Below are positions 3,514 to 26,951 of a DNA stretch of 33,241 nucleotides, one piece after another. The stretch's first letter is position 1; each line of letters begins with the position of its first letter. The stretch comes from Candidatus Binatia bacterium (lineage in GTDB: Bacteria; Desulfobacterota; Binatia; UBA9968), in contig JAICEJ010000007.1 in NCBI GenBank assembly GCA_025924215.1, positions 1 through 33,241 on the forward strand. The letters run 5' to 3'. A program made the position numbers and the translations under genes. The notes under the pieces were generated by a model. It ran no database searches. It was not told the origin of the DNA and saw only the letters and a list, made by a program, of their open reading frames with translations.

Positions 3514-3711
3514 TTCACTCTCCTCCGACTCTAATCAGCCTGATGTATTCCGACAGCTTCGCATCTCACGACATTTTGTTCGAACACTTTGTTAAATCGC
3601 TTCTCTGATACATGCACCACGTCGAATTTTTTGGGCCGATCCTCTTGAAACCTAAGCTTGAATTGCTAGTCTCGCCTGAATTACCTTCTCGCCTTGCGCG
3701 ACACCAAATCC

Positions 3712-9873: not shown

Positions 9874-9889
9874 TGGCATTATTGTTGCT
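9874..9889 (+). promoter_or_regulatory. Sigma54 (RpoN) -24/-12 promoter element
   Basis: TGGCAT-TATTG-TTGCT versus consensus TGGCAC-N5-TTGCW; invariant GG (9875-9876) and GC (9887-9888) separated by exactly 10 nt; ~86 bp upstream of the likely GTG start at 9975. Confidence 0.7.
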
Positions 9890-9974: not shown

Positions 9975-12584
9975 GTGAATATGCCGCTGCCGCAACTTTT
10001 CAAACCTTATCCTGAAACCTTAGAACCTTTACCACTACCGAGCCGGCTTGATTTCACCCCGCTAAGCACGTCGGAAAAAATCACAGCGCAGGGACGTTTT
10101 TTCTTCAACAATCATGAGAAATTTTTCCTGAAAGGAGTCACCTACGGCCCTTTTGCTCCCTCACTTCAAGGGGTTCCTTTCCCAGAAGCAGCACGCGTCG
10201 AGATGGATTTTACATTGATGAGGAAACTCGGAGTCAACTGTTTCCGCACCTTTACACCGCCGCCGGATTGGCTCCTAGATATGGCGGCAGCCTGCGGCCT
10301 GAGAGTGATCGTCGGCATTCCATGGGCTCAGCATATATCTTTTCTTGACTCACCTCGCACCCAGTCTGACGTTCGTAAAACTATCGTCGGCAGTGTTGAG
10401 GCTTGCAAGCGACATCCCGCGACCTTCGCCTATCTAATTGGAAATGAGATTCCCCCCGACATTGTGCGATGGCATGGCGCACGGCGAGTTCGATCGTTTC
10501 TCCGCAGCTTATTCAAAGCGGCGAAAGCAAGCGATCCGGAGCGATTCGTCAGTTACGCGAATTTTCCTTCTACTGAATATCTGGAGATAGATTTTACGGA
10601 CTTCTTGGCCTTCAATGTCTACCTTCATCGCGAGCAAGACTTCCGTCGTTACCTTTTTCATCTCCACAATTTAGCCGGTGATCGGCCGCTCGTGCTGACT
10701 GAGATTGGCATCGACTCGGTCAGCCAGGGGCTCGACTTTCAGGCCAAAGCGATGTCCTGGCAATTGCGTGTGAGCTTCGAAACCGGTGTCGCGGGCACCG
10801 TGATCTTCTCATGGACCGATGACTGGCATGCCTATTCCGGCGCTGAGGGATTTCAGGTTGATGATTGGGCTTTCGGTTTGGTTGATCGTAACCGTCAACC
10901 TAAACCGGCTTACTGGGAAGCAAAAAAGTACTACGCTAATACGCTTCCGGCGGATCTCAAGCGCTATCCCAAGGTTTCTGTAGTTGTATGCGTGTACAAC
11001 GGGGAACGCACAATAGATGCCTGCCTCGCTTCTTTAGAAAAACTCAATTACCGAAATTATGAAGTTATTGTGGTAAACGATGGCTCCACGGATCGAACCC
11101 AAAAAATCGCCGAGAGCTACGACTACATTCGGCTTATTAACCAGGAAAATAGAGGACTGAGCGAGGCGCGCAACGTCGGTATCCGCGCTGCCACAGGTGA
11201 TATCATTGCCTTTACCGATGCCGATTGTATGGCCGATGAAGATTGGCTGACCTATCTGGTCGCCCGTTTTCAATCGTCTGAATTCGGCGCTGTTGGCGGC
11301 CCGAATCTCGCGCCGCCAGACGATTCAATGATCGCCGCATGCGTGGCCCTATCGCCCGGCGCGCCGGCTCATGTGCTTTTGGACGATGAGGTAGCCGAAC
11401 ACATACCGGGATGCAATATGGCATTCCGGCGGGAAGCCTTAGAAGCAATCTCAGGGTTTGATCCGATCTTCCGCGCCGCCGGCGACGATGTGGATGTTTG
11501 CTGGCGGCTCCAGAATAAAGGCTACAAGATCGGCTTCAGCCCGGCGGCGCTGGTTTGGCATTTTCGCCGCAATACCGTGCGAGATTACGTAAAGCAGCAA
11601 CGCGGCTATGGCAAGGCTGAGACTCTGCTGTTCTTTAAACATCCAAGTCGTTTTAACGTGCTGGGTCAATCACGTTGGTTCGGCAGAATCTACGGCGATC
11701 TCTCTTCTTTCTTGTCGAGCCGCCAGCCGAGGATTTACTCCGGAGTTTTCGGCCGTGGACTTTTTCAAACGCTCTACCAGCCACCGCCCTCCGTCTTAGC
11801 ATGCCTGCCGATGACCCTCGAGTGGAACTTGCTTTCTCTCGCGTTAATCGCATGCGCGTTTATTTTTGGCGGCTGGTTTTGGCTTGGACTGGCGCCATTC
11901 GGCATTACCGTAGCGCGGTGTCTGGCAAGCGCGCTACGAGCTCGTGTCCCCAAGGCTTACCGTGGGCGGGCGGCGACTCTGCTGATTACATTTCTAATTT
12001 TCGTGGGGCCACTCTTCCGAACCCTGGAGCGCTATCGCTGGCGCATTCGCAGGCTGCGCGAGGTAAAGCGGGTTGAGTGTAACGGGCCGCGTCAGTCGCC
12101 GCGCATCTCGCTGCGCGAGCGCGCCTTTTATCTGTCGTACTGGAATGAGGCGGGCCAAGAAAAAGAGAGCCTGCTCGGCGCCGCCATGGACTTTCTTGTG
12201 CCGCGAAAGTATCTCATCGCGATGGATCAGGGATGGAGCCAATGGGATCTGGAGATTTGCCAGGGGCCGTGGGCAAAAGCTCAAGTGAAGACAGCGGTTG
12301 AAAATCATGGCGGCTCAAAGCGGCTATTACGTGTGCGCTGCGCCCTAAGGATGTCGAGGGTTTCGCTCATCTGCCTTTCCCTCTACGCCGTATTGACAAC
12401 GACCGCCGCTATCCTCGGGATGCCGCAGATTGCCCTAGCGACACTTGGTAGCGGATTAATTCACGGAGGCGCGATCCTGTATCAAAAATTCCGCCTCGGC
12501 CACGTGCTCTATCACGTCATGGAATCTTTGGCGCACAAACTCGAGTTTGTGCCGGTCGCGAAATCATCGGCAGAGGTGCTATGA
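9975..12584 (+). CDS. GH (TIM-barrel, GH2/GH5-like) - glycosyltransferase family 2 fusion with C-terminal TM region
   Basis: N-term FFFNNHEKFFLKGVTYGPF, LIGNEIP and LTEIGIDS (candidate acid/base and nucleophile Glu); GT2 block PKVSVVVCVYNGERT...VVNDGSTDRT...FTDADCMAD...GDDVDVCWRL...QQRGYGKAE; AGGAG RBS before GTG 9975. Confidence 0.9.
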   Translation: MNMPLPQLFKPYPETLEPLPLPSRLDFTPLSTSEKITAQGRFFFNNHEKFFLKGVTYGPFAPSLQGVPFPEAARVEMDFTLMRKLGVNCFRTFTPPPDWLLDMAAACGLRVIVGIPWAQHISFLDSPRTQSDVRKTIVGSVEACKRHPATFAYLIGNEIPPDIVRWHGARRVRSFLRSLFKAAKASDPERFVSYANFPSTEYLEIDFTDFLAFNVYLHREQDFRRYLFHLHNLAGDRPLVLTEIGIDSVSQGLDFQAKAMSWQLRVSFETGVAGTVIFSWTDDWHAYSGAEGFQVDDWAFGLVDRNRQPKPAYWEAKKYYANTLPADLKRYPKVSVVVCVYNGERTIDACLASLEKLNYRNYEVIVVNDGSTDRTQKIAESYDYIRLINQENRGLSEARNVGIRAATGDIIAFTDADCMADEDWLTYLVARFQSSEFGAVGGPNLAPPDDSMIAACVALSPGAPAHVLLDDEVAEHIPGCNMAFRREALEAISGFDPIFRAAGDDVDVCWRLQNKGYKIGFSPAALVWHFRRNTVRDYVKQQRGYGKAETLLFFKHPSRFNVLGQSRWFGRIYGDLSSFLSSRQPRIYSGVFGRGLFQTLYQPPPSVLACLPMTLEWNLLSLALIACAFIFGGWFWLGLAPFGITVARCLASALRARVPKAYRGRAATLLITFLIFVGPLFRTLERYRWRIRRLREVKRVECNGPRQSPRISLRERAFYLSYWNEAGQEKESLLGAAMDFLVPRKYLIAMDQGWSQWDLEICQGPWAKAQVKTAVENHGGSKRLLRVRCALRMSRVSLICLSLYAVLTTTAAILGMPQIALATLGSGLIHGGAILYQKFRLGHVLYHVMESLAHKLEFVPVAKSSAEVL

Positions 12585-12608
12585 CAAAATCAGCCCTCTG
12601 ACACATCC

Positions 12609-14390
12609 ATGAAACGCACGGTTCGTTCCTATCTAAAGCCGTATTGGCCGGCCTTCGTTCTAGCACTCGGTCAGGTTTTTCTCATTAGCGCGCTGGAGCT
12701 TCTCAAGCCGTGGCCGCTCAAGATCATTATTGACAATATTCTGAGCGACAAGCCGTTGCCGTTTGGATTGGCTCTTAATTGGTCTTCGGAAACCCTTCTA
12801 ATAGCCGCTTGCATCGGCCTAGTCGTTATTTACATCCTGCTGGGCGGTGTGCGCTTCTTGAATGATTGCGCAACAGTTCGGATTGGCCAGGGAATGGTTA
12901 ACGATCTTCGTCGAGACCTCTACAGCCGGATCCAGCGCCTGTCGCTCTCCTTTCACACCCGCCAGCAGGTCGGCGACCTCATGTATCGGATTACCGCCGA
13001 CACTATGTGCATTCAGGCGCTTACTATGAATGGTTTTTTCTCAGTCCTCTCAGCCTCAGTGCTGCTAGCAGGAATGTTCGTGGTGATGCTCTCGCTCGAT
13101 ACCTCTCTCACTTTACTGGCTTTGGCTGTGTGCCCGGCACTCTTCGTTGCCATCGGGCTTCTTAATAGGAAGATGTCCTCTGCAGCTGCACAGGCTCGTC
13201 AAAAGGAGAGTTTAGTCTATTCGCTCCTGCAGCGGACGCTCTCAGGAATACGCGTCATCCAGGCTTTTACCAAAGAAGAGGACGAGGAGCGGCGCTTTGT
13301 CAAAGCAAGCACCGAGAGTCTGGCAGCCGAGTTGCGGCTCTACAACCTCCAAAATTTTTATTTTGGCGTCGTAAATGTCACGATCGCGGCCGGAACCGCC
13401 GCTGTTTTGTGGGTAGGCACCCGCCACGTTCTATCAGGACAGCTTTCGATTGGTGACATGGTTGTATTTACCTCGTATCTTGCTTCCCTCTACATCCCGC
13501 TGAACAGCATCTTCGAAACTTATGGGCTGGTGCAGAGCGCAAAGGTTGGGGTGCGGCGAGCGTTCGACATTCTGGACTCGGAACAGAGCATGCCCGAGGG
13601 CCATAGGAATCTTGGAAGGCAACGGGCGAAAGGTGAGATCTCGTTTGAACAAGTTTCGTTTGGATACGACTCTTCCCGACAGATTTTAAAAGAGATCAAT
13701 CTTCGCGTTGCGCCGGGTCAAAGGATTGCGATTGTCGGCGCGACCGGCGCCGGGAAGTCCACGTTGGTGAGTCTCCTGCCGAGGTTCTACGACCCGCAAT
13801 CGGGGCGGGTAACCATCGACGGCGTCGACATTCGTGATTTTCAACTGAAATCCCTGCGTCGCAATATAGCTATGATTCTTCAACCTCCGCTGGTCTTTCC
13901 TTTCAGCATCCGGGAAAACATCGCTTATGGTCGACCGGGGGCATCTCTGGAAGACGTCATCAGTGCAGCTAAGGTGGCTCAGGTTCATGAGTTTGTTGAG
14001 CAGCTCCCGGACAAGTACGAAACTATGATCAGCGAACAAGGATGCACTTTATCGGAAGGACAGAAATTACGTCTCACCATCGCGCGCGGCATCTTACTCG
14101 ATGCGCCTATACTGATTCTGGACGAGCCCACTTCTTCCGTGGATTCGGAAACCGAGGCTCTGATTATGGATGGGCTGGAGCATCTGATGGAGGGCAAGAC
14201 CACTTTCATTATCGCGCACCGGCTCTCCACGGTTCGACAAGCGGATCTCATTCTCGTCGTCCGCGCCGGCCAGATTGTTGAGCAGGGCACGTTTAGCGAG
14301 CTACTGCATCGCGGTGGCCCGTTTGCGTCTCTGTACAGGACTCAGTTTGGCTTACGCGACGATGAGCGGAAATTCCGTCTGGTCAAATAG
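12609..14390 (+). CDS. ABC exporter, fused permease-ATPase (MsbA/NdvA type)
   Basis: N-terminal TM domain; Walker A GATGAGKST, variant signature LSEGQKLRL, Walker B ILILDEPTSSVDSE, H-loop IAHRLS. Confidence 0.95.
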   Translation: MKRTVRSYLKPYWPAFVLALGQVFLISALELLKPWPLKIIIDNILSDKPLPFGLALNWSSETLLIAACIGLVVIYILLGGVRFLNDCATVRIGQGMVNDLRRDLYSRIQRLSLSFHTRQQVGDLMYRITADTMCIQALTMNGFFSVLSASVLLAGMFVVMLSLDTSLTLLALAVCPALFVAIGLLNRKMSSAAAQARQKESLVYSLLQRTLSGIRVIQAFTKEEDEERRFVKASTESLAAELRLYNLQNFYFGVVNVTIAAGTAAVLWVGTRHVLSGQLSIGDMVVFTSYLASLYIPLNSIFETYGLVQSAKVGVRRAFDILDSEQSMPEGHRNLGRQRAKGEISFEQVSFGYDSSRQILKEINLRVAPGQRIAIVGATGAGKSTLVSLLPRFYDPQSGRVTIDGVDIRDFQLKSLRRNIAMILQPPLVFPFSIRENIAYGRPGASLEDVISAAKVAQVHEFVEQLPDKYETMISEQGCTLSEGQKLRLTIARGILLDAPILILDEPTSSVDSETEALIMDGLEHLMEGKTTFIIAHRLSTVRQADLILVVRAGQIVEQGTFSELLHRGGPFASLYRTQFGLRDDERKFRLVK

Positions 14391-14400
14391 GACAGAGCAC

Positions 14401-15129
14401 GTGCCATTTATACCGGACTTTACAGATCCACGGTATGTGGATGAAGTTGGCTGGTTCCTCTATCACGAGAAATACGGTCGTGATGAGTTTGGCGGCTCCT
14501 ATGATGCCGAGCGGCGCGCATACTCCCGACTCTTGCTTGAAGAGGTCGCTCAGTACTTAAAGCAAGAGCCGACCTGGCTGGAAGACAAAACAGTCGTTAG
14601 CATCGGCTGCGGCTGTAGCGGTGACCTGGTTACATTCCCTTCCCGAATCAAAATTGCAATAGACCCGCTTCTTTATGTTTACCAACAGTTGGGGTTGCTG
14701 ATGCCGGACGAAGCCGGTAGCCCGACTGTTTATTTATCGACAGGCGCTGAGGAGCTTCCGTTACTGTCTGATTATGCCGACCTGGTGATCTGTCGGAACG
14801 CCCTCGATCACATGCATAATCCCGCAGTGGCGTTGAAAGAAATGAGACGGATTCTCAACAAAGAAGGAGCATTGTTCTTAAGCGTTGATCTTGGCGGTGA
14901 GCCCACCCCGGATGAACCAACAGTTTTCTCAACCGACAGCCTTGAAGCTCTTCTGCTGCAGGAGCAATTCGAGATCGTTGATTCTGTCCGCGACGAACAG
15001 CCTCATAGCGCGTGGCGTCCTAGCAGCACGCGCATCATGGTGCGGAAAAAACCGCAAAATGGGAGGACGCTCGACAAGGAAGAGATCCTCCGGCGCTATA
15101 CGGCACGACTAGGCGAGCACGATAAGTGA
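14401..15129 (+). CDS. Class I SAM-dependent methyltransferase
   Basis: VVSIGCGCSGDLVTFPSRIKIAIDPLL, ADLVICRNALDHMHNPAVALKEMRRILNKEGALFLSVDLG; GTG start at 14401 preferred because the upstream part overlaps the ABC gene. Confidence 0.85.
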   Translation: MPFIPDFTDPRYVDEVGWFLYHEKYGRDEFGGSYDAERRAYSRLLLEEVAQYLKQEPTWLEDKTVVSIGCGCSGDLVTFPSRIKIAIDPLLYVYQQLGLLMPDEAGSPTVYLSTGAEELPLLSDYADLVICRNALDHMHNPAVALKEMRRILNKEGALFLSVDLGGEPTPDEPTVFSTDSLEALLLQEQFEIVDSVRDEQPHSAWRPSSTRIMVRKKPQNGRTLDKEEILRRYTARLGEHDK

Positions 15130-15167
15130 CAATGGGACGAGTGTAGCCGCTGAGAGAACCACCACAC

Positions 15168-16331
15168 GTGACATCGAAGCTTCGCATTATTGTGTCAGGG
15201 CTCATCGCTCAATACCCACTCGGCGGTGTGACTTGGGATTACTTTCAATATGTTCTTGGCCTCGCTCAGCTAGGTCACGATGTCTACTATCTTGAGGATA
15301 CCGGGCAATGGCCTTATAACCCGCAAGAAGGCGGGCTCGGCAAAGACTGTGACTTCAATGTTCAATATCTCGCTGCCGTCATGTCGCGCTATGGACTAGC
15401 TGAGCAGTGGGCCTATCGCTTTCCGTGGCAATCGCAGTGGTTTGGGCTTGCCGATGCGAAACGACGAGAGGTCATTCGCTCGGCTGACTTGCTCATCAAC
15501 ATTTCCGGAACTCTAGAGCGACCTGAGGAGTATCGACAGGTAAGCCGCTTGGCCTATATCGACTCGGATCCTGTCTTTACACAGGTAAAGTTGGCGCGTG
15601 GCCAACTCGATTTTCGCAAATGGATCGATGCGCATGATGTTCAGTTCAGCTTCGGTGAATGCCTCTCGCCCGAGGTGCCTGAGACTGGGCACCACTGGCG
15701 TCCGACGCGGCAGCCGATTGTGCTCTCAGAGTGGCATCCTGAGAGACCGTTTCGCGAGGTTTTCACTACCGTGATGAACTGGACTAGCTACAAGCCTGTC
15801 GTTTACGGTGATCGAAGTTATGGGCAAAAAGATCTCGAGTTCGCACGCTTTCAGGAGTTGCCGCGCCTTATCGCCCCCACAGCTCTGGAGATCGCTGTCA
15901 ATGCCGGGAAAACTCGCCGCACACCACGTCAGTTGCTAGCCCGCAAGGGATGGCGCGTTGTCGATCCGGCCGAGGTCTGTCCTGATCTCGAAAGTTATCG
16001 CGATTACATCGAATCGTCCAAGGCCGAGTGGAGCGTCGCGAAGAATGGCTATGTCGTCGGGCGGCCCGGGTGGTTCAGTTGTCGATCGGCATGCTATTTA
16101 GCGGCGGGGCGCCCCGTCGCCGTTCAGGACACTGGGTTCAGCGCGGTCCTCCCTACAGGCGCGGGCCTCCTGGCCTTCAGTACCGTGGAGGAGGCGATAG
16201 CGTCGATCAAAGAGATCGAAGCAGACTATGAGCGGCATGCGAAGGCTGCCCGTGAGATCGCTTCGGAGTATTTCGATGCGACGACGGTGCTCACAGGTTT
16301 AGTGGAGGAGGCGATGAATGGTCGCGGCTGA
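15168..16331 (+). CDS. Glycosyltransferase-like protein (copy 1 of tandem pair)
   Basis: LRIIVSGLIAQYPLGGVTWDYFQYVLGLAQLGHDVYYLEDTGQWPYNP; SGWF-like C-terminal block PGWFSCRSACYLAAGRPVAVQDTGFSAVLPTGAGLLAF. Confidence 0.8.
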   Translation: MTSKLRIIVSGLIAQYPLGGVTWDYFQYVLGLAQLGHDVYYLEDTGQWPYNPQEGGLGKDCDFNVQYLAAVMSRYGLAEQWAYRFPWQSQWFGLADAKRREVIRSADLLINISGTLERPEEYRQVSRLAYIDSDPVFTQVKLARGQLDFRKWIDAHDVQFSFGECLSPEVPETGHHWRPTRQPIVLSEWHPERPFREVFTTVMNWTSYKPVVYGDRSYGQKDLEFARFQELPRLIAPTALEIAVNAGKTRRTPRQLLARKGWRVVDPAEVCPDLESYRDYIESSKAEWSVAKNGYVVGRPGWFSCRSACYLAAGRPVAVQDTGFSAVLPTGAGLLAFSTVEEAIASIKEIEADYERHAKAAREIASEYFDATTVLTGLVEEAMNGRG

Positions 16332-17649
16332 TCGCCCTGTGAGAAAGCGCACCCCGGGTAGCGACATCCCGCCGCTGTCACATCGGAAAGGTGCGACCGC
16401 GCTGCCTGAACGTGCGGACCGCGCCGCAATGCTGCCTCACGTTGATCGATCTTTCGAAAGAGTTGAGGGGAAAAGAGACCGCGTGCACGTCGTCAAGCCA
16501 AAGGTCGTTGTGGTTTTAGGAATCATGGGCTGTCTACCCGTGGCCGGAACCGGTGTGGCTTGGAATACCCTGCAGCATCTTATCGCACTTCGTCGCCTCG
16601 GCTACGATGTCTACTACGTGGAAGCGACTGCCGTATGGCCTTTTAATGCCACCACCGATGACTGCACGTTTCCGGTAACCTATATCAGCAATCTGCTAAA
16701 CCGCTTTGGCTTTGAAAATAAATGGGCCTATGTCGCCGCGCACAGTGACAACCGGTGCTACGGGCTCTCAGAGCTTCAGGTGAAAGATTTATACTCCCGT
16801 GCAGACGCAATCATCAATCTCTTCGGCGGAACGATACTGCGCGACGAGCACATGAGATGTCCGATCCGGATCTATCTTGAAACCGATCCGGTAGTGCATC
16901 AAATCCGCATCGCGAACGGTGAACAAAGATATATCAATCTCGTGGCAGCCCACACGGCGCTGTTCACGTGGGGAGCGAACTACGGAGCATCGGACTGCGG
17001 TGTCCCGCTGCAATCCTTTGAGTATAAACCTACCCGTTCCCCCGTCCTCCTCGATTGTTGGGAGTCGCCCTGTAATCCGGCGGCACGCTACTTTACGACT
17101 ATTGGCCATTGGGATCAGTCTGTCAAAGACCTGGAATATGACGGCGAACGTTACTCCTGGAGCAAGCATCGCGAGTTTTTAAAACTCCTCGAGTTACCCA
17201 GGCGCACGACTCAGGAATTTTCCCTGGCCTTGGCCATAGATGATCCCGCTACCGTACAGATGCTCAAAGGCTACGGGTGGCGTATCGAAGATGCGTATCG
17301 GATCTCCGAGACCCTGGAGAGTTACCGCGGGTATATCTGGGGGTCGCGGGGCGAGCTCACGGTGGCCAAGGATATGAACGTGCGCTTGCGTAGTGGTTGG
17401 TTCAGCGAGCGGAGCGCCTGCTATCTCGCCGCCGGCAAGCCAGTGATCACTCAGGAAACGGGTTTTAGCAAGTCCATTCCCACGGGACTCGGTTTATACG
17501 GATTTCAGAAACTCGAGGATATTCCTCCTGCCATTGAGGCCATCAACAGTGATTACCCGAGACATTCCCAGGCCGCCAAAGAAATTGCCGCGGAGTATTT
17601 CGATGCTGAAAAGCTCCTCCGGCAGGTGACGATTGAAGCAGGCTTGTAG
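16318..17649 (+). CDS. Glycosyltransferase-like protein (copy 2 of tandem pair); translation may begin downstream at GTG 16483
   Basis: KVVVVLGIMGCLPVAGTGVAWNTLQHLIALRRLGYDVYYVEATAVWPFN; SGWFSERSACYLAAGKPVITQETGFSKSIPTGLGLYGF aligns with copy 1. Confidence 0.8.
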   Translation: MVAADRPVRKRTPGSDIPPLSHRKGATALPERADRAAMLPHVDRSFERVEGKRDRVHVVKPKVVVVLGIMGCLPVAGTGVAWNTLQHLIALRRLGYDVYYVEATAVWPFNATTDDCTFPVTYISNLLNRFGFENKWAYVAAHSDNRCYGLSELQVKDLYSRADAIINLFGGTILRDEHMRCPIRIYLETDPVVHQIRIANGEQRYINLVAAHTALFTWGANYGASDCGVPLQSFEYKPTRSPVLLDCWESPCNPAARYFTTIGHWDQSVKDLEYDGERYSWSKHREFLKLLELPRRTTQEFSLALAIDDPATVQMLKGYGWRIEDAYRISETLESYRGYIWGSRGELTVAKDMNVRLRSGWFSERSACYLAAGKPVITQETGFSKSIPTGLGLYGFQKLEDIPPAIEAINSDYPRHSQAAKEIAAEYFDAEKLLRQVTIEAGL

Positions 17650-17663
17650 GCCAAGGCGAGGCA

Positions 17664-18431
17664 ATGGCAGGATCTGAAAATCGCGTACATTCCGAGGCAA
17701 CCAGTCGCGCCAAATACTTGATTGTCAACGCCGATGATTTTGGCCAGAGTCGCGGGATCAACCGCGGCATCATCACCGCGCATCGCGACGGCATCGTCAC
17801 CAGCGCGAGCCTCATGGTGCGCTGGCCGGCTGCCGCTGAAGCGGCCGCTGATGCGCGACGACATCCGAGCCTAAGCGTTGGGTTGCATATCGATCTCGGC
17901 GAGCAGATTTTGCGTTCCGGAGAATGGCTGTCCCTCTACAGCGTCCTTCCAGTGCATAATGAGAGTACGGTGCGAGAAGAAATCTCCCGGCAACTCGGGA
18001 TGTTCGATCGCCTAGTGGGACATGCCCCGACTCATCTCGACTCGCACCAGCACGTTCATCTGCGCGAGCCCGCCCGCGTTATTCTCGTGGAAATCGCAGC
18101 GCGCCTCGGAGTTCCGCTCCGAAATTGCTCTCCGGAAGTTAGTTATTGCGGCAGCTTCTATGGGCAAGCAGACGATGGTACGACCTTGCGTGACGTGATC
18201 AGCGTCGACGGCCTGATTCGTATTTTCGAAACGTTGCCGGCGGGTTGTACAGAGCTGGCATGCCATCCAGCGGCCGAGTGCGATCTGGAGACGTTGTATT
18301 CTCAGGAGCGCCTCGAGGAACTGAAAATTTTGTGTGATCCCCGGGCGCGAGCCGCGCTAACGGCCGCCGGGATCGGGCTGCGTTCGTTCGCAAACCTTGC
18401 GCATGATAACGAGCGGTCGGTCTCCGGATGA
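17664..18431 (+). CDS. ChbG/YdjC-family carbohydrate deacetylase
   Basis: YLIVNADDFGQSRGINRGIITAHRDGIVTSASLMV, LSVGLHIDLGEQI, PTHLDSHQHVHLREP, TELACHPA. Confidence 0.92.
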   Translation: MAGSENRVHSEATSRAKYLIVNADDFGQSRGINRGIITAHRDGIVTSASLMVRWPAAAEAAADARRHPSLSVGLHIDLGEQILRSGEWLSLYSVLPVHNESTVREEISRQLGMFDRLVGHAPTHLDSHQHVHLREPARVILVEIAARLGVPLRNCSPEVSYCGSFYGQADDGTTLRDVISVDGLIRIFETLPAGCTELACHPAAECDLETLYSQERLEELKILCDPRARAALTAAGIGLRSFANLAHDNERSVSG

Positions 18432-18495
18432 GCGCACCTAGATTGCATTCGGGGAGCACTAGCCTGAACGTCCGCGCGAACAGGAAATAGGAGCG

Positions 18496-19359
18496 GTGAT
18501 GGAGAAGTTATTGCCCGAGCACTTGAAGGACTTTTGGCAGACAGTGGAGCGCCACGAGCATTCCGCCGAAGACTACACTCGCGAATACGACCGCGCGCTC
18601 GCCGAATACCGGCAAGCCTGGGAGCGTGGCCTTATGTTGCCTGGACACGACAATTTACGTGAGAGTCTCTTGTCTGAGCTCGGCAACTACACGCAATGCC
18701 CCGACGCTGCTGAGGTGCGGCGCCGCTGCGAGCAAGCAGTCGCCAGCCTGAAGCGTGAGTGGGAAGACAAGGTTCAATCGGAGGATCTGCGGTCCATCGA
18801 GCGGTTCTACGATGACACTCCGGCTATGCTGCACGAGCTCATGTGGTGGCATACATTGGGCGACGATCTTTCGCCGCTCGCCTATGTCCTAGCGTTGCGC
18901 TTTGCCCAGCAGCACGGCTGCAAAAGTTACCTCGACTTTGGCGCCGGGGTGGGAGCCGGTGGGCTCCTCTTCGCGAGCCATGGGCTACAAACTACCCTGG
19001 CAGACATCAGCTCCTCTTTATTGCGCTTCAGCGCCTGGCGATTAGGTATCAGGAAGTTACCGGCCCAATACATTGATCTAAAGGAGTGTGAGCTTCCAAG
19101 TGAGGGCTTCGATATAATCACCGCGATGGATGTCTTCGAACATCTCATCGACCCAGTAGAATCGGTCGAGAAGCTCTGGAACGCGCTAAAGCCCGGCGGA
19201 TTCCTCTACGGGCGGATCTCGGCAGAAGAGGACGAGGATCGGCCTCAGCACATTGTGCACGATTTTGGACCCACGTTTGAACGTATGCGCGGACTCGGCC
19301 TGGTCGAGGTCTGGCGTGATGAGTGGCTTTGGGGTCACCAAGTTTTTCAAAAACTGTGA
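18496..19359 (+). CDS. Class I SAM-dependent methyltransferase
   Basis: YLDFGAGVGAGGLLFA, FDIITAMDVFEHLIDPVESVEKLWNALKPGGFLY. Confidence 0.85.
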   Translation: MMEKLLPEHLKDFWQTVERHEHSAEDYTREYDRALAEYRQAWERGLMLPGHDNLRESLLSELGNYTQCPDAAEVRRRCEQAVASLKREWEDKVQSEDLRSIERFYDDTPAMLHELMWWHTLGDDLSPLAYVLALRFAQQHGCKSYLDFGAGVGAGGLLFASHGLQTTLADISSSLLRFSAWRLGIRKLPAQYIDLKECELPSEGFDIITAMDVFEHLIDPVESVEKLWNALKPGGFLYGRISAEEDEDRPQHIVHDFGPTFERMRGLGLVEVWRDEWLWGHQVFQKL

Positions 19360-19377
19360 GGAAGAGGAGAGAATCCG

Positions 19378-20031
19378 ATGATCGAGCGCGAACTCGTCGA
19401 CCAAAAAATGCGCAGTTTCATGGACAGCCTGTGGGACCGCGGTGACTTCTGGGACATCGAAAAATCGGCTTATGAGCGCGATCGATGTGTACAGCTGCTC
19501 AAGATGCTTGAGGACAAGCGTTACCGTCGCGTACTCGAAATCGGATGCGGCGCCGGTTATCTCACACGCCTGCTCGCCGCTCATGCCGACCACATTGTTG
19601 CTCTCGACATTTCTCAGACGGCCATTGACCGGGCGCGTTCACTTAGTGCAGCCCAGCCAGACGTGGATTTCCGCGTAGCGAATATCATGGATTACAAGCC
19701 ACAGCCCGACGGGCCATGGGATCTCGTCGTTTTTAGCGACACGATATGTTATCTGGGCTGGCTTTATCCATTGTTCGATGTGGCTTGGCTCGCGGTGCAG
19801 ATTTTTGAGGCGACACGCAGCGGCGGACGGCTGATGCTCGCCAATAGTATGTACGAAGGTGAGGATTGGCTTCTCCGTCCCTGGCTCATCCGCACCTACC
19901 GCGATCTGTTTGTCAATGTGGGCTACACCATCGAGACCGAGACGGTCTATAAGGCTACAAAACGGGGCGTTGAGTTCGAGGTACTCATGACGCTCTTTTG
20001 CAAGACGGAAGAGAAAAAGCCCGCAAAGTGA
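19378..20031 (+). CDS. Class I SAM-dependent methyltransferase (NodS-like)
   Basis: VLEIGCGAGYLTRLLAAHADHIVALDISQTAIDRAR, WDLVVFSDTICYLG. Confidence 0.87.
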   Translation: MIERELVDQKMRSFMDSLWDRGDFWDIEKSAYERDRCVQLLKMLEDKRYRRVLEIGCGAGYLTRLLAAHADHIVALDISQTAIDRARSLSAAQPDVDFRVANIMDYKPQPDGPWDLVVFSDTICYLGWLYPLFDVAWLAVQIFEATRSGGRLMLANSMYEGEDWLLRPWLIRTYRDLFVNVGYTIETETVYKATKRGVEFEVLMTLFCKTEEKKPAK

Positions 20032-21998
20032 TCGTTAGCAAGTGGCTGGTGCCGAGCATCTGCATCATCCTTTTCAGCGGTCTGACCGTGGCCTGCACAG
20101 ACTCTCGGACGGTCCTTTCCAGCCGTTCACGGCTCGCGTGTACCGACCTACGCGAAGCGCCTCATTCGCGCTGGGAGACGACTGTTGATGGCGGAGTGCA
20201 TTGGCTACTTACACCATGTGGCGAGCGCTTTTTTTCGGTTGGAGTCAATGTCATGGACGGCGGCGAGCCGCAGCGATTTTCCAACGGGCGTATCGCTTAC
20301 CATTGGGGAGCCTTCTATCCCGACTTGGACGGCTGGGTCCAAGCGGCACGGCGCCGAGTGTTAGCGTGGGGCTTCAACACTGCCGGTGGATGGTCGTTGC
20401 ATCCCACGGTCTTAGGGCTGCCGATAACTCCCAATCTCGAATTGGGCCGAACCGCCCAGTTTCATTGGTTTGATCCGTTTGATCCCGCCACCGCCGAGCG
20501 CATGCATGCGTGGGCACGCCGCCTGGTCGCCCCCTACAAAGGCAACCCGTACCGCATCGGCTATTTCATCGATAATGAAGTCGGCTGGTGGAATGGTGCT
20601 CTATTTCTATTTTATCTGAAGCAGCCCGCCACCAATCACACCAAGCAGCATCTTATCGCTCGACTGCGTGAGCATTACGGCAGCAACTGGGAGCGCTTCA
20701 CGCGGGACTTCGTGCCGCCTCAAGGCACGGCCTCGTTTGAGCATTTGCTTCACCACACGCATGCCACGCAGTTGCGACCTGGTGGTGCGGGAATCAACTT
20801 TGTTCGCCAATGGACGGGGATCATCACGGGCCTCTACTATCGGCTAGCTCATGACGCCATTCGTGCGGCCGATCCTGACGCCCTGATACTCGGTGATCGA
20901 CTACCCATCTATTACGATCCGGTCGCGGTGCGGACAATGGTGCGGCATGTCGACGTCTTATCCACCAACTATAACGTTGATAGCCCTGACGGATGGCTCG
21001 CCCGGTACTTTTTTGATGGTCTGCGACAACTCGCCCCGGGCAAGCCGATTCTGATTTCTGAGTGGTTTTTTGCCGCAGACGAAAATCGCTCCGGCAACCT
21101 TAACAATACCCACTTGATGACCGTGCCAACCCAGGCTGAGCGTACTCGCGGTGCCATCGCAGCCGCCCAGCGATTCGCCCGCGAGCCACAGATCGTCGGT
21201 CTCCACTGGTTTCAGTATTATGACCATCCGTACGGAGGGCGTGAGGACGGCGAGGATCATAACTTTGGGCTCGTCGATATCAACGACCGGCCTTATGAGC
21301 GGCTTGTCGAGGCATTCAGTCGGATCAATCCTCGTCTTGGGGACCTCCATCACCAGCTACCTGACACTGTCCAAGGAAATCGACAGGATCCGTGGCAGAT
21401 TCCTCACGCGGGGATCGATGCGCGGGATCGCTCCCTCGAAGAATGGCCGAAACAGCGAGCCTTGATCGCCCCGCTGATTGCACCCGAGCCCGAAATACCT
21501 TTTGGGGATTTCTACTTAGCGTGGAGTGCCAATGGCTTACACCTGGCTATAATCGCAATGGATTATTACGATCCCGATCTGCTCGCGTATGACGGCGAAT
21601 TCCCCCTGCAGGAAGCCTTTCGCGTCGACTGGGGCGTGAATGCAGGCGGCGAAGTGCGTCACTTTACGCTCTATGTCGTCCCACCTCGAGTGTTTCCCGA
21701 AAGCGGCACGCCGATGATGCAGCCCTGGCTATGCAGCGCGGACCGGGTCTCATGTCACTCTGTACCTGGAGCAGTAACGACCTACTTCGGAAGCGATCAG
21801 CCGCGTATCACGATTGAGGTCTCGCTGCCCTGGCAGGCGCTGGGAGTGACGCAGCCGGCTTCGGTGGGACATCTACGAATGGAGGTTGCTGCCACGGCGT
21901 GGCATCGCTCCCGCTGGATGTCATGGAGCGGAGTTCCTCCCCTTCTGGCGATGCAAGATCCCTCGCAATGGCGTCCTGTACGACTGGCAGGCGATTGA
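20028..21998 (+). CDS. Secreted glycoside hydrolase (agarase/beta-galactosidase-like TIM barrel) with possible C-terminal CBM9-like domain
   Basis: Signal peptide/possible lipoprotein MIVSKWLVPSICIILFSGLTVAC; YFIDNEVGWWNG and PILISEWFFAADENRSG catalytic-Glu-like blocks; C-term FGDFYLAWSANGLHLAIIAMDYYDP...FRVDWGVNAGGEVRHFTLYVVPP; GTG start overlaps upstream TGA. Confidence 0.82.
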   Translation: MIVSKWLVPSICIILFSGLTVACTDSRTVLSSRSRLACTDLREAPHSRWETTVDGGVHWLLTPCGERFFSVGVNVMDGGEPQRFSNGRIAYHWGAFYPDLDGWVQAARRRVLAWGFNTAGGWSLHPTVLGLPITPNLELGRTAQFHWFDPFDPATAERMHAWARRLVAPYKGNPYRIGYFIDNEVGWWNGALFLFYLKQPATNHTKQHLIARLREHYGSNWERFTRDFVPPQGTASFEHLLHHTHATQLRPGGAGINFVRQWTGIITGLYYRLAHDAIRAADPDALILGDRLPIYYDPVAVRTMVRHVDVLSTNYNVDSPDGWLARYFFDGLRQLAPGKPILISEWFFAADENRSGNLNNTHLMTVPTQAERTRGAIAAAQRFAREPQIVGLHWFQYYDHPYGGREDGEDHNFGLVDINDRPYERLVEAFSRINPRLGDLHHQLPDTVQGNRQDPWQIPHAGIDARDRSLEEWPKQRALIAPLIAPEPEIPFGDFYLAWSANGLHLAIIAMDYYDPDLLAYDGEFPLQEAFRVDWGVNAGGEVRHFTLYVVPPRVFPESGTPMMQPWLCSADRVSCHSVPGAVTTYFGSDQPRITIEVSLPWQALGVTQPASVGHLRMEVAATAWHRSRWMSWSGVPPLLAMQDPSQWRPVRLAGD

Positions 21999-22214
21999 CC
22001 AAGAGGAAGACTGATGGATACGCTTCTTGTTATGTGTCCTCCTAACTTCGAGCAATCACCTTACGGATGACGCTCTGCCGAACTCCCACGGGCTAGCTAT
22101 GGCGACCCGCAATAAAGCATCAGCTATGTTCACTGGGTATGCCGGGTGTCTCACTGCACTCGACGACCGAATGATAACACAAAGGAGGCCGCGCATGCCG
22201 ATGCGCTCACTACG

Positions 22215-23762
22215 GTGAAATCACAAGAACCTCATTATAAGAGGTTGGAGCTCGCTCTTCTCCTTGCAGTGATCTCTTTAGGCGTATCATGTCGGCTCAT
22301 CCAAGTATCCCAGCCGTTCATAGACGCTTATTCCTGGCGACAAGCAGATGTTGCCTTGATCGCCGAAAACTTTTACTTGCACGGCTTTAATATCTTTTAT
22401 CCGCAGATCAACTGGGCGGGAAACTGGCCTGGCTACGTCGGCACAGAATTTCCGCTCGTGCCCTTCTTCGCGTCCTTACTCTACCTGGTATACGGGGTCC
22501 AGGATTGGATCGGCAGATCTGTTTCCGTGTTTTTTTTCGTTTTATCGGTTCCGTTCTTTCATTTGCTTGTGAGGAAGGTTTTCAATCAACGGAGCGCATG
22601 GTTCGCCGCGGGAATCTACACGCTCGCTCCGCTCAGCGTTTTTGCCGGCCGCTCGTTCATGCCCGACATGGCATACCTGGCTTTTTCTATCGCCGCGCTT
22701 TATCTGTTTACACACTGGCTCGAGGAAGAGAAATCGTTTTTTCGGTTCTTCGTCGCATGCGCAGCGACGACACTGGCGATTCTTGTCAAGCTTCCGGCAA
22801 TCATCATTGGCCTGCCGATGCTTTATGTGGCTTGGGCAAAGTACGGAGCAATGCTGTTGCGCCGACAAAGACTGTGGGCGTTTGCCGTTTGCTCACTCCT
22901 CTTCCCCTTGATCTGGTATTCTCATGCTTATTGGGTCAGCCTCTCACACTTTCCGCATCACATGTTCGGCAGCGGGGCGTTGGAGACTGTGAGCCTTGAC
23001 TGGTACGTTAATATCGTTCAGCAAGCACTTACATCCGTGGCGACACCGGTCACATCGGCTGCAATGCTCCTAGGCATTTGCCTACCGGCGCAAGCGAAGT
23101 TCGGTCGTCTGTTCCATTGGTGGCTCGTGGCTATTCTGCTGTTCATTATTGTCGCGGGCCAAGGACACAGACATCCTTGGTATCTTTTACCGTTTGTGCC
23201 TGTCGCAGCCGCCTTGGCTGGATACGCCTGCGACTTTGCGCTGTCCAGAATTGCGCGACCGGCGCGGTGGAAAACCCTCTTCCTAGGATTGATCTTTTTC
23301 TCTTCAATGTCGTATTTTTCTTTCGTTTACTTAAAGCCGCTTTATGAACCCGTAGCTGTGGCACCGTGGCGCGCGGGAAACGAGCTCAATCGAATGGCTC
23401 CGCTGGAAATTCTCATTGCCGCTGGCGATGGCGGCGATCCAACTTGCATTTACTATAGCAAGCGAAAGGGCTGGCATTTCCTTGAAAACTTCGGCGCGGC
23501 GCCCATCGATAGCGAGCAAGCCATAGCCGAGCTCGAACGATTGAAGCAGAGAGGCGCAGCCTACCTGGTACTGACGCGACACCAACCCTGGTGGTGGTCG
23601 GAACGTTACGACAACTTCTGGAGTTACCTTGATTCGCATTACGCGCGCGCGCGGGATGCGGAGGACTACGTTATCTTCGACCTGGGGAACACCGAACCAG
23701 CCAACTGGCCAGTCGTCTCTGTACCTCCTTCAAAACTGACGGCCCCATTTCAACCCGGTTGA
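22215..23762 (+). CDS. GT39/ArnT-like integral membrane glycosyltransferase (copy 1)
   Basis: QPFIDAYSWRQADVALIAENFYLHG...YVGTEFPLVPFFASLLYLVYG, multi-TM; candidate GTG start at 22215. Confidence 0.85.
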   Translation: MKSQEPHYKRLELALLLAVISLGVSCRLIQVSQPFIDAYSWRQADVALIAENFYLHGFNIFYPQINWAGNWPGYVGTEFPLVPFFASLLYLVYGVQDWIGRSVSVFFFVLSVPFFHLLVRKVFNQRSAWFAAGIYTLAPLSVFAGRSFMPDMAYLAFSIAALYLFTHWLEEEKSFFRFFVACAATTLAILVKLPAIIIGLPMLYVAWAKYGAMLLRRQRLWAFAVCSLLFPLIWYSHAYWVSLSHFPHHMFGSGALETVSLDWYVNIVQQALTSVATPVTSAAMLLGICLPAQAKFGRLFHWWLVAILLFIIVAGQGHRHPWYLLPFVPVAAALAGYACDFALSRIARPARWKTLFLGLIFFSSMSYFSFVYLKPLYEPVAVAPWRAGNELNRMAPLEILIAAGDGGDPTCIYYSKRKGWHFLENFGAAPIDSEQAIAELERLKQRGAAYLVLTRHQPWWWSERYDNFWSYLDSHYARARDAEDYVIFDLGNTEPANWPVVSVPPSKLTAPFQPG

Positions 23763-23801
23763 AGCAGATGATGAGCCAAGGGTTCATTTGAGACCGCACC
23801 T

Positions 23802-25235
23802 ATGAAATCCGAGGCCAGCGACTCTCAGGTTGACTCAAGTGCCTTCGACCGTAGCGACTTTGCCCTAGCGATCGCCCTTGCCGGCATTGCCGGCATCGTC
23901 ATACTCCCCGGACTCGGGGCACAAAGCCTTGCCAATTGGGATGAAGCGATCTACGGCGTCGTGACTCGCGAACTACTCGCTGATCTAAGTCTAACCTTAC
24001 ACTATGGCGGCCGTCCCTGGTTTGAGAAACCACCGTTTGCATTCTGGCTCATGGCCGCCAGCTCTTCGCTCTTTGGCCTAACAGAGTTCGCCCTGCGCCT
24101 GCCAAGCGCGTTCTTCGGAATAACTGCCGTCGTGCTTCAGTACTTGGCAGGTCGCAACCTAGGCGGACGACCCGCCGGTCTGCTGGCGGCACTCTTACTG
24201 CTTGGTACCCCTCAGTTCGTCGCTTATAGCCGGCTGGCGATGACCGACGTTCCTCTTGCAGGTTTGGGAATGCTTTCGGTTGTTCTGCTATTGTACGCCA
24301 AGGGACGTTCCTCTCTGATCATGGCAGCCGGCGCAGCCTTCGGCCTTGCCATTCTCACAAAATCCGCCGCCACCTTTCTGTTCCTCCCTGGATTACTAGC
24401 GATTGCCATTGCCCAGGATGGTCTCCGTTTTCTACGTTCGAGGGAGACTTGGCTAGCGGCCATCGTGACCATTGCGATTGCGCTACCCTGGCACGCATGG
24501 CTGGGGTTGACCTACGGTGATTCGTTCGTTGACCAATATTTGGGCTTCCATATCTTGGCTCGTTTTGCTTCGCCACTCGAGGGTCACGAAGGGAGTTCGC
24601 TTTATTATCTGGATACCTATTTTCAAAAGGGCGGGTTCCTTGCTCCTTTCCATGCGGCTGGACTAGGGCTTGCGGTAAGTCTCGCAATCCTCAGGCGCGA
24701 TCGCTTGCTCGCCGCGGTCAGCATACTGGCGTTGGCTGCCTTCGCGATCGTGAACGTGCAAGGGACTAAAATCGGCGGATACCTTACGCCGGTTTATCCA
24801 GCTGCAGCGCTTGCAGCGGCGCTCGGTCTCACTAGATTCATCCAGAACACCCGGGCGGTCGTTGCCCTGATCGCAGTCACTACTCTCCTCGCACTGCCCG
24901 GCATTATGTTTGGCCGCGGTCGGTTTGTAGAAACCGCGGACCTTGTCCATTTCAGTCCCGAGGTTCGTTCCTTAACAACCGCGCCAGTCTTCGCGGAAGG
25001 CCGTATTTCACAGCTTTATTCGTTTGGACTATCGGAACCGGCGTTGCGCTTTTATCTCGCTGATCAGGTCCAATCTATTGGAGAGAACGAACTGGAGCGG
25101 CTATTTGCGCAAGGCAAACCTTTTCTCTGTTTGACGTTCAATTCTGAGGCAGCCAATTTTGCAAGTAAGCACCCGTATTTGCAGCTCGAGATTATCGCCT
25201 CCACAAAATCACTCGCACTGATTGGCCATCGTTAA
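23802..25235 (+). CDS. GT39/ArnT-like integral membrane glycosyltransferase (copy 2)
   Basis: LANWDEAIYGVVTRELLADLSLTLHYGGRPWFEKPPFAFWLMAASSSLFGLTEFALRLPSAFFG, SRLAMTDVPLAGLGML. Confidence 0.9.
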   Translation: MKSEASDSQVDSSAFDRSDFALAIALAGIAGIVILPGLGAQSLANWDEAIYGVVTRELLADLSLTLHYGGRPWFEKPPFAFWLMAASSSLFGLTEFALRLPSAFFGITAVVLQYLAGRNLGGRPAGLLAALLLLGTPQFVAYSRLAMTDVPLAGLGMLSVVLLLYAKGRSSLIMAAGAAFGLAILTKSAATFLFLPGLLAIAIAQDGLRFLRSRETWLAAIVTIAIALPWHAWLGLTYGDSFVDQYLGFHILARFASPLEGHEGSSLYYLDTYFQKGGFLAPFHAAGLGLAVSLAILRRDRLLAAVSILALAAFAIVNVQGTKIGGYLTPVYPAAALAAALGLTRFIQNTRAVVALIAVTTLLALPGIMFGRGRFVETADLVHFSPEVRSLTTAPVFAEGRISQLYSFGLSEPALRFYLADQVQSIGENELERLFAQGKPFLCLTFNSEAANFASKHPYLQLEIIASTKSLALIGHR

Positions 25236-25628
25236 CGAGCGTCACGCGGTTGCCTCACAGTGTGTACATCGACAGTTCTCTTCTGGATATGACAATAGTA
25301 AGTAGTAGCCTAACGCTGGGTATGATATAGCCGATTGTGCTCGCCGAGGATCACTGGTGAGGTATATGATCGTGCACGGACTCGATGAAACGGAATCGTA
25401 AAAATCGGCTCGAACTCGATCGATCGCTGATTAGCGCTGATGACGCCGGCTCAACGCCATAGTAGATCGGAAACCAGACCGCCGAGTCGAGTATTTGCTC
25501 GGCACGCATGGCTCCCGAAGCTCCCATCAGACGCAAGTGTGTGGCTTGAAGGGGGGACCGCGTTACCGTCTCAGTAGGCGTCGATCTCTCGTTGCTTTCG
25601 TTGTTTGAAAGAGCACAGAAGATATTTT

Positions 25629-26951
25629 ATGAAAACTGTCACCGCCCGTGATTTACAGAAGAATTTTAGAGAGTGGGTAGACGGCCTTCGACAGGACCAG
25701 ACTCTCGTCTCACATCAAGGCAAACCGGCAGCCGTGTCAGGGGCCAACGAAGAGAGTGACCGTAGAGAGCTTATGAGCATTGTGAATAGTCGGGCCATGG
25801 TACGCGACCTGCGGCTGGATTTTTTTCGCGGCCTCGCCCTTTTTTGCATATTCATCGATCATATCCCGAATAATATCCTGGCGAAGTTTACGCTCCAATC
25901 GCTAATGTTCGCCGATGCGGCCGAAGTGTTCATCTTGATTTCCGGCTACACCGCAGGCATGGTGTACGGTCGCGCCATGGAACGCCAGGGTTTTTTAATC
26001 GCCGCGGTCCGCATCTACCACCGAGTATGGCAGCTCTACGTCGCTCACATTTTTCTGTTCATGATATTCATGGCGACAATGGCGTACACCGCCGGCGCCC
26101 TCAACACCTCGCTTTACGCCGAGGAATTTGGCGCCGCCAATTTCCTCAACGAACCGGGCTTAGCCGTGGTGAAGGCGCTAACGCTACAGTTCCAGCCGGC
26201 GTTCATGGACATCCTGCCACTCTACATCGTGCTGTTGGCGATCCTCCCGCTCGTGGTGGCCGGGTATCGATCTTGGCCCGGCGTAGTGCTTTTCGCCTCC
26301 ATGGCGATTTGGCTCGCGGTCCAGATCGATAAACGGATCGCGCTACCGGCCTATCCCGGGCCGGACCAATATTGGTTTTTTAACCCGTTCGCATGGCAGG
26401 CGCTGTTTTTCTTGGGGGCGTGGTTCGGCTGGCGCGCCAGCCACGGTGGACTTTCCTGGCTCAACCGTCGCTGGTTGTTCTACCTCGCGGCGGGCCTCTC
26501 GCTGGCCGGATTTCTAACCCGGTTTAGCTGGACGCTACACGAATTTTACGATCCGATTCCGGTTTCCGCCAGCGGCGAGCTTTTGTGGCCGTTCTTGAGC
26601 AAGGGAGATCTGGGACCCCTCCGTTTCGCCAATGTACTCGCCCTCGCGCTTCTCGTCTCACGCATGATCCATCCGCAGGCGTGGTTTTTGGCTAGTCGCG
26701 CCGCGCGGCCCTTGGTTATCAGCGGGCGCAACTCCCTGCACATCTTCTGCCTTGGCATCCTGCTCTCAGTGCTTGGGCAACTCGTGCTCAACGAATTCTT
26801 CGGCGGTATTCTCATGCAGTTTGCGGTATCCGCGGCCGGCATCGCGATCATGATCGGCGTTGGTATGTTCATGGAGTGGTTCGATGCCGCACAGCGCACA
26901 TCAGGCGGTCCCGTTGGTGCACCGATGGCGGGAAGAGGAGCGACACGATGA
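25629..26951 (+). CDS. opgC: OpgC-family membrane protein with Phd/YefM-antitoxin-like N-terminal extension; alternative starts ATG 25773 or 25797
   Basis: MKTVTARDLQKNFREWVDGLRQDQTLVSHQGKPAAVSG (Phd-like) then RDLRLDFFRGLALFCIFIDHIPNNILAKFTLQSLMFADAAEVFILISGYTAGMVYG (OpgC). Confidence 0.88.
   Translation: MKTVTARDLQKNFREWVDGLRQDQTLVSHQGKPAAVSGANEESDRRELMSIVNSRAMVRDLRLDFFRGLALFCIFIDHIPNNILAKFTLQSLMFADAAEVFILISGYTAGMVYGRAMERQGFLIAAVRIYHRVWQLYVAHIFLFMIFMATMAYTAGALNTSLYAEEFGAANFLNEPGLAVVKALTLQFQPAFMDILPLYIVLLAILPLVVAGYRSWPGVVLFASMAIWLAVQIDKRIALPAYPGPDQYWFFNPFAWQALFFLGAWFGWRASHGGLSWLNRRWLFYLAAGLSLAGFLTRFSWTLHEFYDPIPVSASGELLWPFLSKGDLGPLRFANVLALALLVSRMIHPQAWFLASRAARPLVISGRNSLHIFCLGILLSVLGQLVLNEFFGGILMQFAVSAAGIAIMIGVGMFMEWFDAAQRTSGGPVGAPMAGRGATR

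Follow-up and report, generated by a model that had tools for sequence, protein, structure and literature searches.

The window analysed here, a stretch of 33,241 nucleotides from a Candidatus Binatia bacterium (Desulfobacterota; assembly GCA_025924215.1, contig JAICEJ010000007.1), carries a cluster of glycan-related genes in which a fusion of a glycoside hydrolase (GH) and a family 2 glycosyltransferase (GT2), here called GH-GT2, is accompanied by an ATP-binding cassette (ABC) half-exporter and by two paralogous glycosyltransferases (GTs), GTa and GTb. We observed that a core formed by GH-GT2, the ABC half-exporter and at least one GT of the GTa/GTb family recurs well beyond the phylum of the window, with named carriers in Rokubacteria, Nitrospirota, Verrucomicrobiota, Planctomycetota, Pseudomonadota, Acidobacteriota, Bacteroidota and Chloroflexota; the resulting total of about nine phyla is approximate because the labels of metagenome-assembled genomes (MAGs) can be wrong. 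Sequence comparison indicates that the system proper is this trio of GH-GT2, ABC exporter and GT with a GT-B fold. A first-pass annotation of the window had proposed a glycan assembly, export and modification system, and its conservation in unrelated genomes is borne out. In 31 of the 34 readable loci, GH-GT2 is followed at a distance of a few genes at most by an ABC gene of the same orientation, which is usually its immediate downstream neighbour.

Recurrence of the core in distant genomes

A scan of the genome collection with GTa retrieved 27 loci from many phyla. The proteins of the window were compared with those of the GTa loci, of relatives from the same family and class, of loci found through the GH domain and of the GH-GT2 loci of the first-set genomes (compared loci are given L-numbers; G185 is one compared genome and C400 a contig of the window's assembly), using homology-anchored maps, because naive calls of open reading frames (ORFs) in high-GC loci chose long antisense ORFs. 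GH-GT2 was present in all 12 GT-bearing genomes tested (E below 1e-180), and in 10 cases it lay beyond the region initially retrieved. Among 198 sampled genomes of the window's phylum, strong matches to the GH domain and strong matches to the GT family fell in the identical five genomes (Fisher p 4e-10, rising to 1.6e-8 when the genome of the window itself is left out; both values are optimistic because the genomes share descent); in one of the five, G185, the GTs and GH-GT2 lie on different contigs. The first-pass annotation had staked its proposal on these genes occurring together elsewhere, and the proposal withstood that check. Minimal operons (L040-L043 and L056) are composed of GH-GT2, ABC and one or two GTs, and the genes next to two of them, L040 and L042, both checked, are unrelated. 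The carriers include a cultured bacterium, Tateyamaria pelophila DSM 17270 (L018 and L081), and a member of the window's own family labelled as a groundwater deltaproteobacterium (L036, the contig of L013). A divergent GH-GT2 (34% identity; L060, 8704-11100) was also seen in G185 with no ABC exporter nearby, and the same genome holds a standard GH-GT2 and ABC pair elsewhere (L059).

The GH-GT2 and GT trees do not track the phyla, and the window's family is split between the two halves of the GH-GT2 tree, a discordance that points to horizontal spread and cassette exchange. GTb lies nearest to copies of its own genus and family and GTa nearest to Rokubacterial and Nitrospirota copies, to which it is 72 and 68% identical, respectively, above its identity to own-family copies, whereas for GH-GT2 and the ABC exporter the closest copies are those of a same-family genome (75-77% identity). 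Judged from these sequences, the foreign relatives of GTa seem to be a sign of gene exchange within the operon. In L029 and L030, labelled Betaproteobacteria and Bacteroidetes, the GTs fall within a Methylacidiphilales clade, and these MAGs are probably mislabelled or misbinned. A search for plasmid-borne copies with annotation gave none of use.

Properties of the core proteins and comparison with known systems

The GH domain of GH-GT2 has the two glutamate residues of clan-A retaining enzymes, the acid/base in an NE motif and the nucleophile (E156 and E241, counted from ATG 9981), and both are conserved in the alignment in every homologous copy that extends to them; E241 aligns with the residue altered in the LaGH157 E224A structure (9g4n). 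By fold and sequence, the domain is nearest to GH2 glucuronidases and a GH157 beta-1,3-glucanase and, weakly, to a GH72 beta-1,3-glucanosyltransferase. Hydropathy revealed no N-terminal signal or transmembrane segment among 22 GH-GT2 homologues, and no transmembrane segment was found between the GH and GT2 domains. Since GT2 draws its nucleotide sugars from the cytoplasm and no transmembrane segment separates the two domains, the GH domain should be cytoplasmic, and an exporter would be needed, because neither a signal nor a transmembrane segment precedes the GH domain or lies between it and GT2; this placement would explain the exporter as the usual partner. The GT2 domain reads QQRGYGKAE at the site of the Q(Q/R)xRW motif of processive synthases, with QQ, YG and E kept across the family, and its top NCBIfam match is MftF (176 bits, below the cut-off of 280).

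The AlphaFold2 model of GTa (predicted local distance difference test, pLDDT, 95.7) has a GT-B fold (Foldseek E 2.6e-12 and weaker, TM-scores mostly 0.5-0.6) and many of its neighbours are GT4-type, but no Pfam or NCBIfam GT4 family model matched it over the cut-off (best PF13524, 18.5 bits, cut-off 25). The ABC half-exporter is related to MsbA and ChvA and stays below the cut-offs of the families compared (MsbA_lipidA, its best NCBIfam match, 436 versus 602 bits; PglK, 189 versus 1000; ChvA, 318 versus 585; PRK13657, 397 versus 733).

A glycosidase-type domain is built into the ChvB/NdvB synthase, whose partner, the ChvA/NdvA exporter, is a single-chain ABC protein. As in the rhizobial NdvB/NdvA pair, in which a membrane synthase works with an exporter to the periplasm (PMC4881576), a membrane synthase of the window is paired with an exporter; unlike in ChvB/ChvA, there are no GT84 or GH94 domains (no Pfam match at E 1e-3 in the window proteins), the ABC protein is far under the ChvA cut-off and GT-B partners are constantly added. 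In the model for the Pseudomonas GH17-GT2 cyclic glucan synthase, also named NdvB, the GH domain cleaves and cyclises the GT2 product, and a periplasmic GH17 stands behind a signal peptide, followed by transmembrane helices and a BcsA-like GT2 with Q(Q/R)xRW (PMC10237404). The window protein likewise joins a TIM-barrel GH and a GT2 in one membrane protein, but its GH is predicted to lie on the cytoplasmic side and gave no GH17 Pfam match, no transmembrane segment precedes GT2, the motif is QQRGYGKAE and the protein is usually partnered by an ABC exporter. By analogy, the trio seems to work like the cyclic-glucan synthase/exporter pairs, yet outside either known family.

Two further systems share single features with the locus. 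MftF has been connected with mycofactocin that bears a cellulose-like chain (PMC7491314), and the second methyltransferase (MT2) weakly matches MftM; against mycofactocin oligoglycosylation, the MftF cut-off is missed, no mycofactocin genes were seen in the window, and there are an extra GH domain and an exporter. NodS is involved in Nod factor N-methylation (PMC4881576), and in the window a deacetylase gene adjoins the gene of a NodS-like methyltransferase (MT3); unlike in Nod factor decoration, the deacetylase is of YdjC and not NodB type, NodC, NodA and NodIJ are missing, and MT3, at 56 bits, falls well short of the NodS cut-off of 300. With so weak a NodS match, the resemblance to deacetylation and N-methylation of Nod factors may be taken as a lead only. 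Taken by their marker genes and family models, the ChvB/ChvA, Pseudomonas NdvB, MsbA, PglK, Wzy, exosortase and osmoregulated periplasmic glucan (OPG) systems do not include the locus, and no match to any pathway was found, in agreement with the earlier remark that the combination was not recognised as a characterised pathway; a literature search covering few subscription journals gave no published description of it.

Proposed mechanism and alternatives

We favour, with a confidence just short of even, a mechanism in which an oligosaccharide or glycolipid is made in the cytoplasm, remodelled by the fused GH domain, exported by an ABC homodimer and then tailored. GTa, GTb and the membrane-anchored GT2 would build the oligosaccharide from nucleotide sugars at the cytoplasmic face, without undecaprenyl-diphosphate priming; the GH domain, on the same side of the membrane, would cut or transfer the growing beta-glycan and set its length, branching, closure or release; and the half-exporter, as a homodimer, would carry the product out of the cytoplasm. 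In the window's lineage, the YdjC-type protein would deacetylate a sugar and the three methyltransferases (MT1-3) would methylate the product, MT3 perhaps N-methylating the freed amine, which is a guess, while outside the cytoplasm the GT39 proteins would add sugars and the lipoprotein GH would trim. What we observed comprises the gene content, its conservation and co-occurrence, the predicted topology, the intact catalytic residues and the failure to find a priming enzyme in the assembly. This order of reactions, the beta-glycan nature of the product, transglycosylation in preference to hydrolysis, the acceptor and the destination are what we infer; exchangeable tailoring genes fit a surface or secreted glycan.

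Several observations weigh against this mechanism. At about 19-24% identity, the GH domain is a remote relative of GH2, GH157 and GH72, which makes "beta-glucan" no more than a lead, and the structure model of GH-GT2 is of moderate quality (pLDDT 74.5, from 14 sequences). The fused GH may remove by-products rather than shape the product. No ABC gene lies near GH-GT2 in L074, in L081 or at the divergent copy L060; the genome of L081 does carry two ABC genes in tandem next to its GTs (L018). In addition, the absences on which a route without priming depends are not absolute, because the assembly, 98% complete and with 6% contamination, is divided into 745 contigs.

Those absences bear on an alternative in which an undecaprenyl-diphosphate-linked oligosaccharide is flipped by a PglK-like ABC protein and then undergoes polymerisation or ligation on the periplasmic side. 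In its favour, the flippase PglK is an ABC protein of a single chain and GT39 enzymes use polyprenyl-phosphate sugars. The first-pass annotation had seen no initiating phosphoglycosyltransferase, Wzy or exosortase in the cluster, and this holds for the whole assembly, in which we found no match to PF02397, Wzy_C (PF04932) or exosortase (PF09721) and a single PF00953 protein, identified as MraY (441 bits, cut-off 192); the pair of an initiating phosphoglycosyltransferase and a Wzy polymerase that marks Wzx/Wzy pathways was thus not found. Wzx had no Pfam match among the window proteins scanned, and no genome-wide search was made for it. Together with the low PglK score, these results make the undecaprenyl-diphosphate route very improbable. 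The earlier suggestion of a possibly lipid-linked glycan finds no support in its usual undecaprenyl-diphosphate form, since the assembly yielded no phosphoglycosyltransferase other than MraY; the acceptor may be a different lipid. An exosortase/PEP-CTERM exopolysaccharide, suggested by sigma54, was rejected for lack of an exosortase match.

The main rival is a glycolipid with an ABC lipid flippase: the GTs and GH-GT2 would extend a membrane lipid other than undecaprenyl-diphosphate, the MsbA-like protein would flip it, and the GH domain would trim or proof-read the head group. The best match of the ABC protein is indeed to MsbA, the phospholipid mannosyltransferase PimA is among the Foldseek neighbours of GTa, and an acceptor gene is not evident in the minimal operons, as would be expected if the acceptor were a housekeeping lipid; the MsbA score is, however, under the curated cut-off, and no lipid-modifying gene is conserved alongside the core. 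A hopanoid acceptor, which an HpnK-like YdjC protein could suggest, was rejected, the only cyclase match being weak and partial (22.9 bits). On balance we regard the glycolipid as somewhat unlikely. An ordinary OPG pathway with GH-GT2 as an alternative synthase appears improbable: OpgG (3694-5301) and the only OpgC of the genome flank the cluster, and OpgC stays linked to it in two other genera, but OpgH, the synthase expected at such a locus, sits beside another OpgG on contig C400, major facilitator superfamily genes and opposite-strand genes separate the window's OpgG from the cluster, and among the matches made no Opg genes accompany the cores of other phyla. With OpgG-OpgH on another contig, the OPG pathway was rejected as an explanation of the core. 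That the cluster is a chance neighbourhood of unrelated sugar genes is hardly credible; gene content around the core does differ between loci, but the shared five of 198 genomes and the ABC gene near GH-GT2 in most loci contradict it for the core, and chance could account for single accessories such as OpgC.

Returning to the cytoplasmic assembly and ABC export that we favour, it is possible, though we hold this with somewhat more doubt than the mechanism, that the trio forms a class of its own beyond the Wzy, Wzm/Wzt, synthase and sucrase routes, independent of undecaprenyl-diphosphate, with a cytoplasmic transglycosidase fused to GT2, GT-B partners, MsbA-type export and exchanged cassettes in about nine phyla. 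If correct, many environmental bacteria, among them Nitrospirota, Verrucomicrobiota, Rokubacteria and Planctomycetota, would share one glycan machine whose parts go under the separate annotations "glycosyltransferase", "ABC transporter" and "hypothetical protein". It would raise the question of what a cytoplasmic glycosidase does when fused to a glycosyltransferase, offer a marker gene pair for locating a class of modified glycans and, with T. pelophila as a cultured carrier, be testable.

Locus layout, regulation and tailoring genes

The genes listed by the first-pass annotation (GH-GT2, ABC, three methyltransferases, paralogous GTs, YdjC, secreted GH and GT39s) were all recovered on the forward strand, with slightly shifted start codons, by the ORF list, Pfam/NCBIfam scans, fold and PDB matches (Table 1). 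For GTa, GTb and the secreted GH, no Pfam family exceeded the threshold, and their assignment comes from the predicted fold and from sequence searches of the PDB. Intergenic gaps range from -34 to +64 nt, except for 147 nt before GT39a and a longer gap before OpgC, which gives the look of one or two transcripts.

Table 1. Features of the gene cluster and its possible accessories (SAM, S-adenosylmethionine).
Feature	Position	Strand	Evidence and remarks
Sigma54-type promoter-like site TGGCATTATTGTTGCT, ~100 nt before the likely GH-GT2 start	9874..9889	+	11/12 consensus positions
GH-GT2 fusion: N-terminal clan-A GH, GT2 domain, C-terminal transmembrane segments	9981..12584	+	Pfam GT2 3.7e-35, GH2_C 3.3e-12
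ABC half-exporter, membrane and ATPase domains in a single chain	12609..14390	+	ABC_membrane 4.4e-45, ABC_tran 4.1e-32
MT1, SAM methyltransferase (ORF open from 14275)	14362..15129	+	Methyltransf_11 1.1e-9; retained in L009, L037, L044
GTa, GT-B fold glycosyltransferase, unassigned sequence family	15168..16331	+	AlphaFold2 model, Foldseek; 27 related loci
GTb, GTa paralogue; real start probably ~16490	16318..17649	+	37-40% identity to GTa
YdjC-type sugar deacetylase	17664..18431	+	PF04794 4.6e-47; motifs NADDFG, HLDSHQHVH
MT2, SAM methyltransferase	18496..19359	+	Methyltransf_12 9.1e-14; retained in L039
MT3, SAM methyltransferase, weakly NodS-like	19378..20031	+	Methyltransf_25 1.7e-14; retained in L037, L044, L045
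Secreted lipoprotein GH, agarase-like	19998..21998	+	PDB beta-agarases E 1.5e-20; homologue in L045
GT39a, PMT/ArnT-like membrane glycosyltransferase	22146..23762	+	PMT_2 2.9e-14
GT39b, PMT/ArnT-like membrane glycosyltransferase	23802..25235	+	PMT_2 2.9e-25
OpgC-type acyltransferase, OpgC domain from ~25803, possible accessory	25605..26951	+	PF10129 1.8e-111; linked in L038, L045
SGNH-type (NonGDSL) hydrolase-like protein, overlaps OpgC, possible accessory	26876..27742	+	PF25182 2.1e-64; after OpgC in L038, L045

The GH-GT2 ORF is open from TTG 9873, and AGGAG lies just ahead of GTG 9976 and ATG 9981; since the sigma54-type site falls within the extra stretch (9874-9889), one of the two later starts is more likely. 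This site provides a -24/-12 element upstream of the operon, from which sigma54 control is predicted. Upstream of the 34 GH-GT2 genes, sites with at least 10 of 12 consensus positions occur at 8, versus 1.1 expected (Poisson p ~2e-5), and with at least 11 at 4, versus 0.17 expected (Poisson p ~3e-5), mostly in relatives of the window, Rokubacteria and Nitrospirota, so that such control is likely for a subset only. The sigma54 control read from the window alone is thereby strengthened for part of the range, and sigma54 as a universal feature was rejected. Scans for sigma70-type promoters and terminators were at or below background.

The methyltransferases, the YdjC-type deacetylase, the GT39s and the secreted GH are, as far as the compared loci indicate, lineage-specific tailoring. 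In the family and class of the window (L037, L039, L044 and L045), the set consists of YdjC with at least one methyltransferase, with further methyltransferases in L037 and L044 and another GT39 in L044; the description of the glycan as methylated and deacetylated suits this lineage and not the system at large, because these genes are lineage-specific additions. Other loci add pyruvyltransferase-like proteins, sulfotransferases, polysaccharide deacetylases, APH-like kinases, epimerases, UDP-sugar dehydrogenases, and GT4 or CBM9 proteins. In an Anaerolineae locus (L034, 3892-8748), four consecutive APH-like kinase genes stand between the ABC exporter and the GTs. The secreted GH of the window has a lipobox-like LTVAC and the motifs DNEVG and ISEW; a single secreted-GH family across loci was rejected, as this protein, the CBM9-bearing c22 and c5 are not detectably related. 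The c5 protein, of about 590 amino acids and without a Pfam match, follows a GT4 gene in five loci (L013, 13935-15710, and L010, L015, L019 and L022) and may be a further, likewise unassigned, enzyme of the system.

OpgC and the SGNH-type protein may also belong to the neighbourhood, and their linkage is kept in two further genera of the same family. OpgC may instead serve an ordinary periplasmic glucan, because the genome also has the OpgG-OpgH pair on C400. The first ~66 residues of the OpgC ORF (25605-25802) weakly match, in frame with OpgC, the Phd/YefM antitoxin model (E 0.00099); they may be the remnant of an antitoxin gene or result merely from the start codon chosen.

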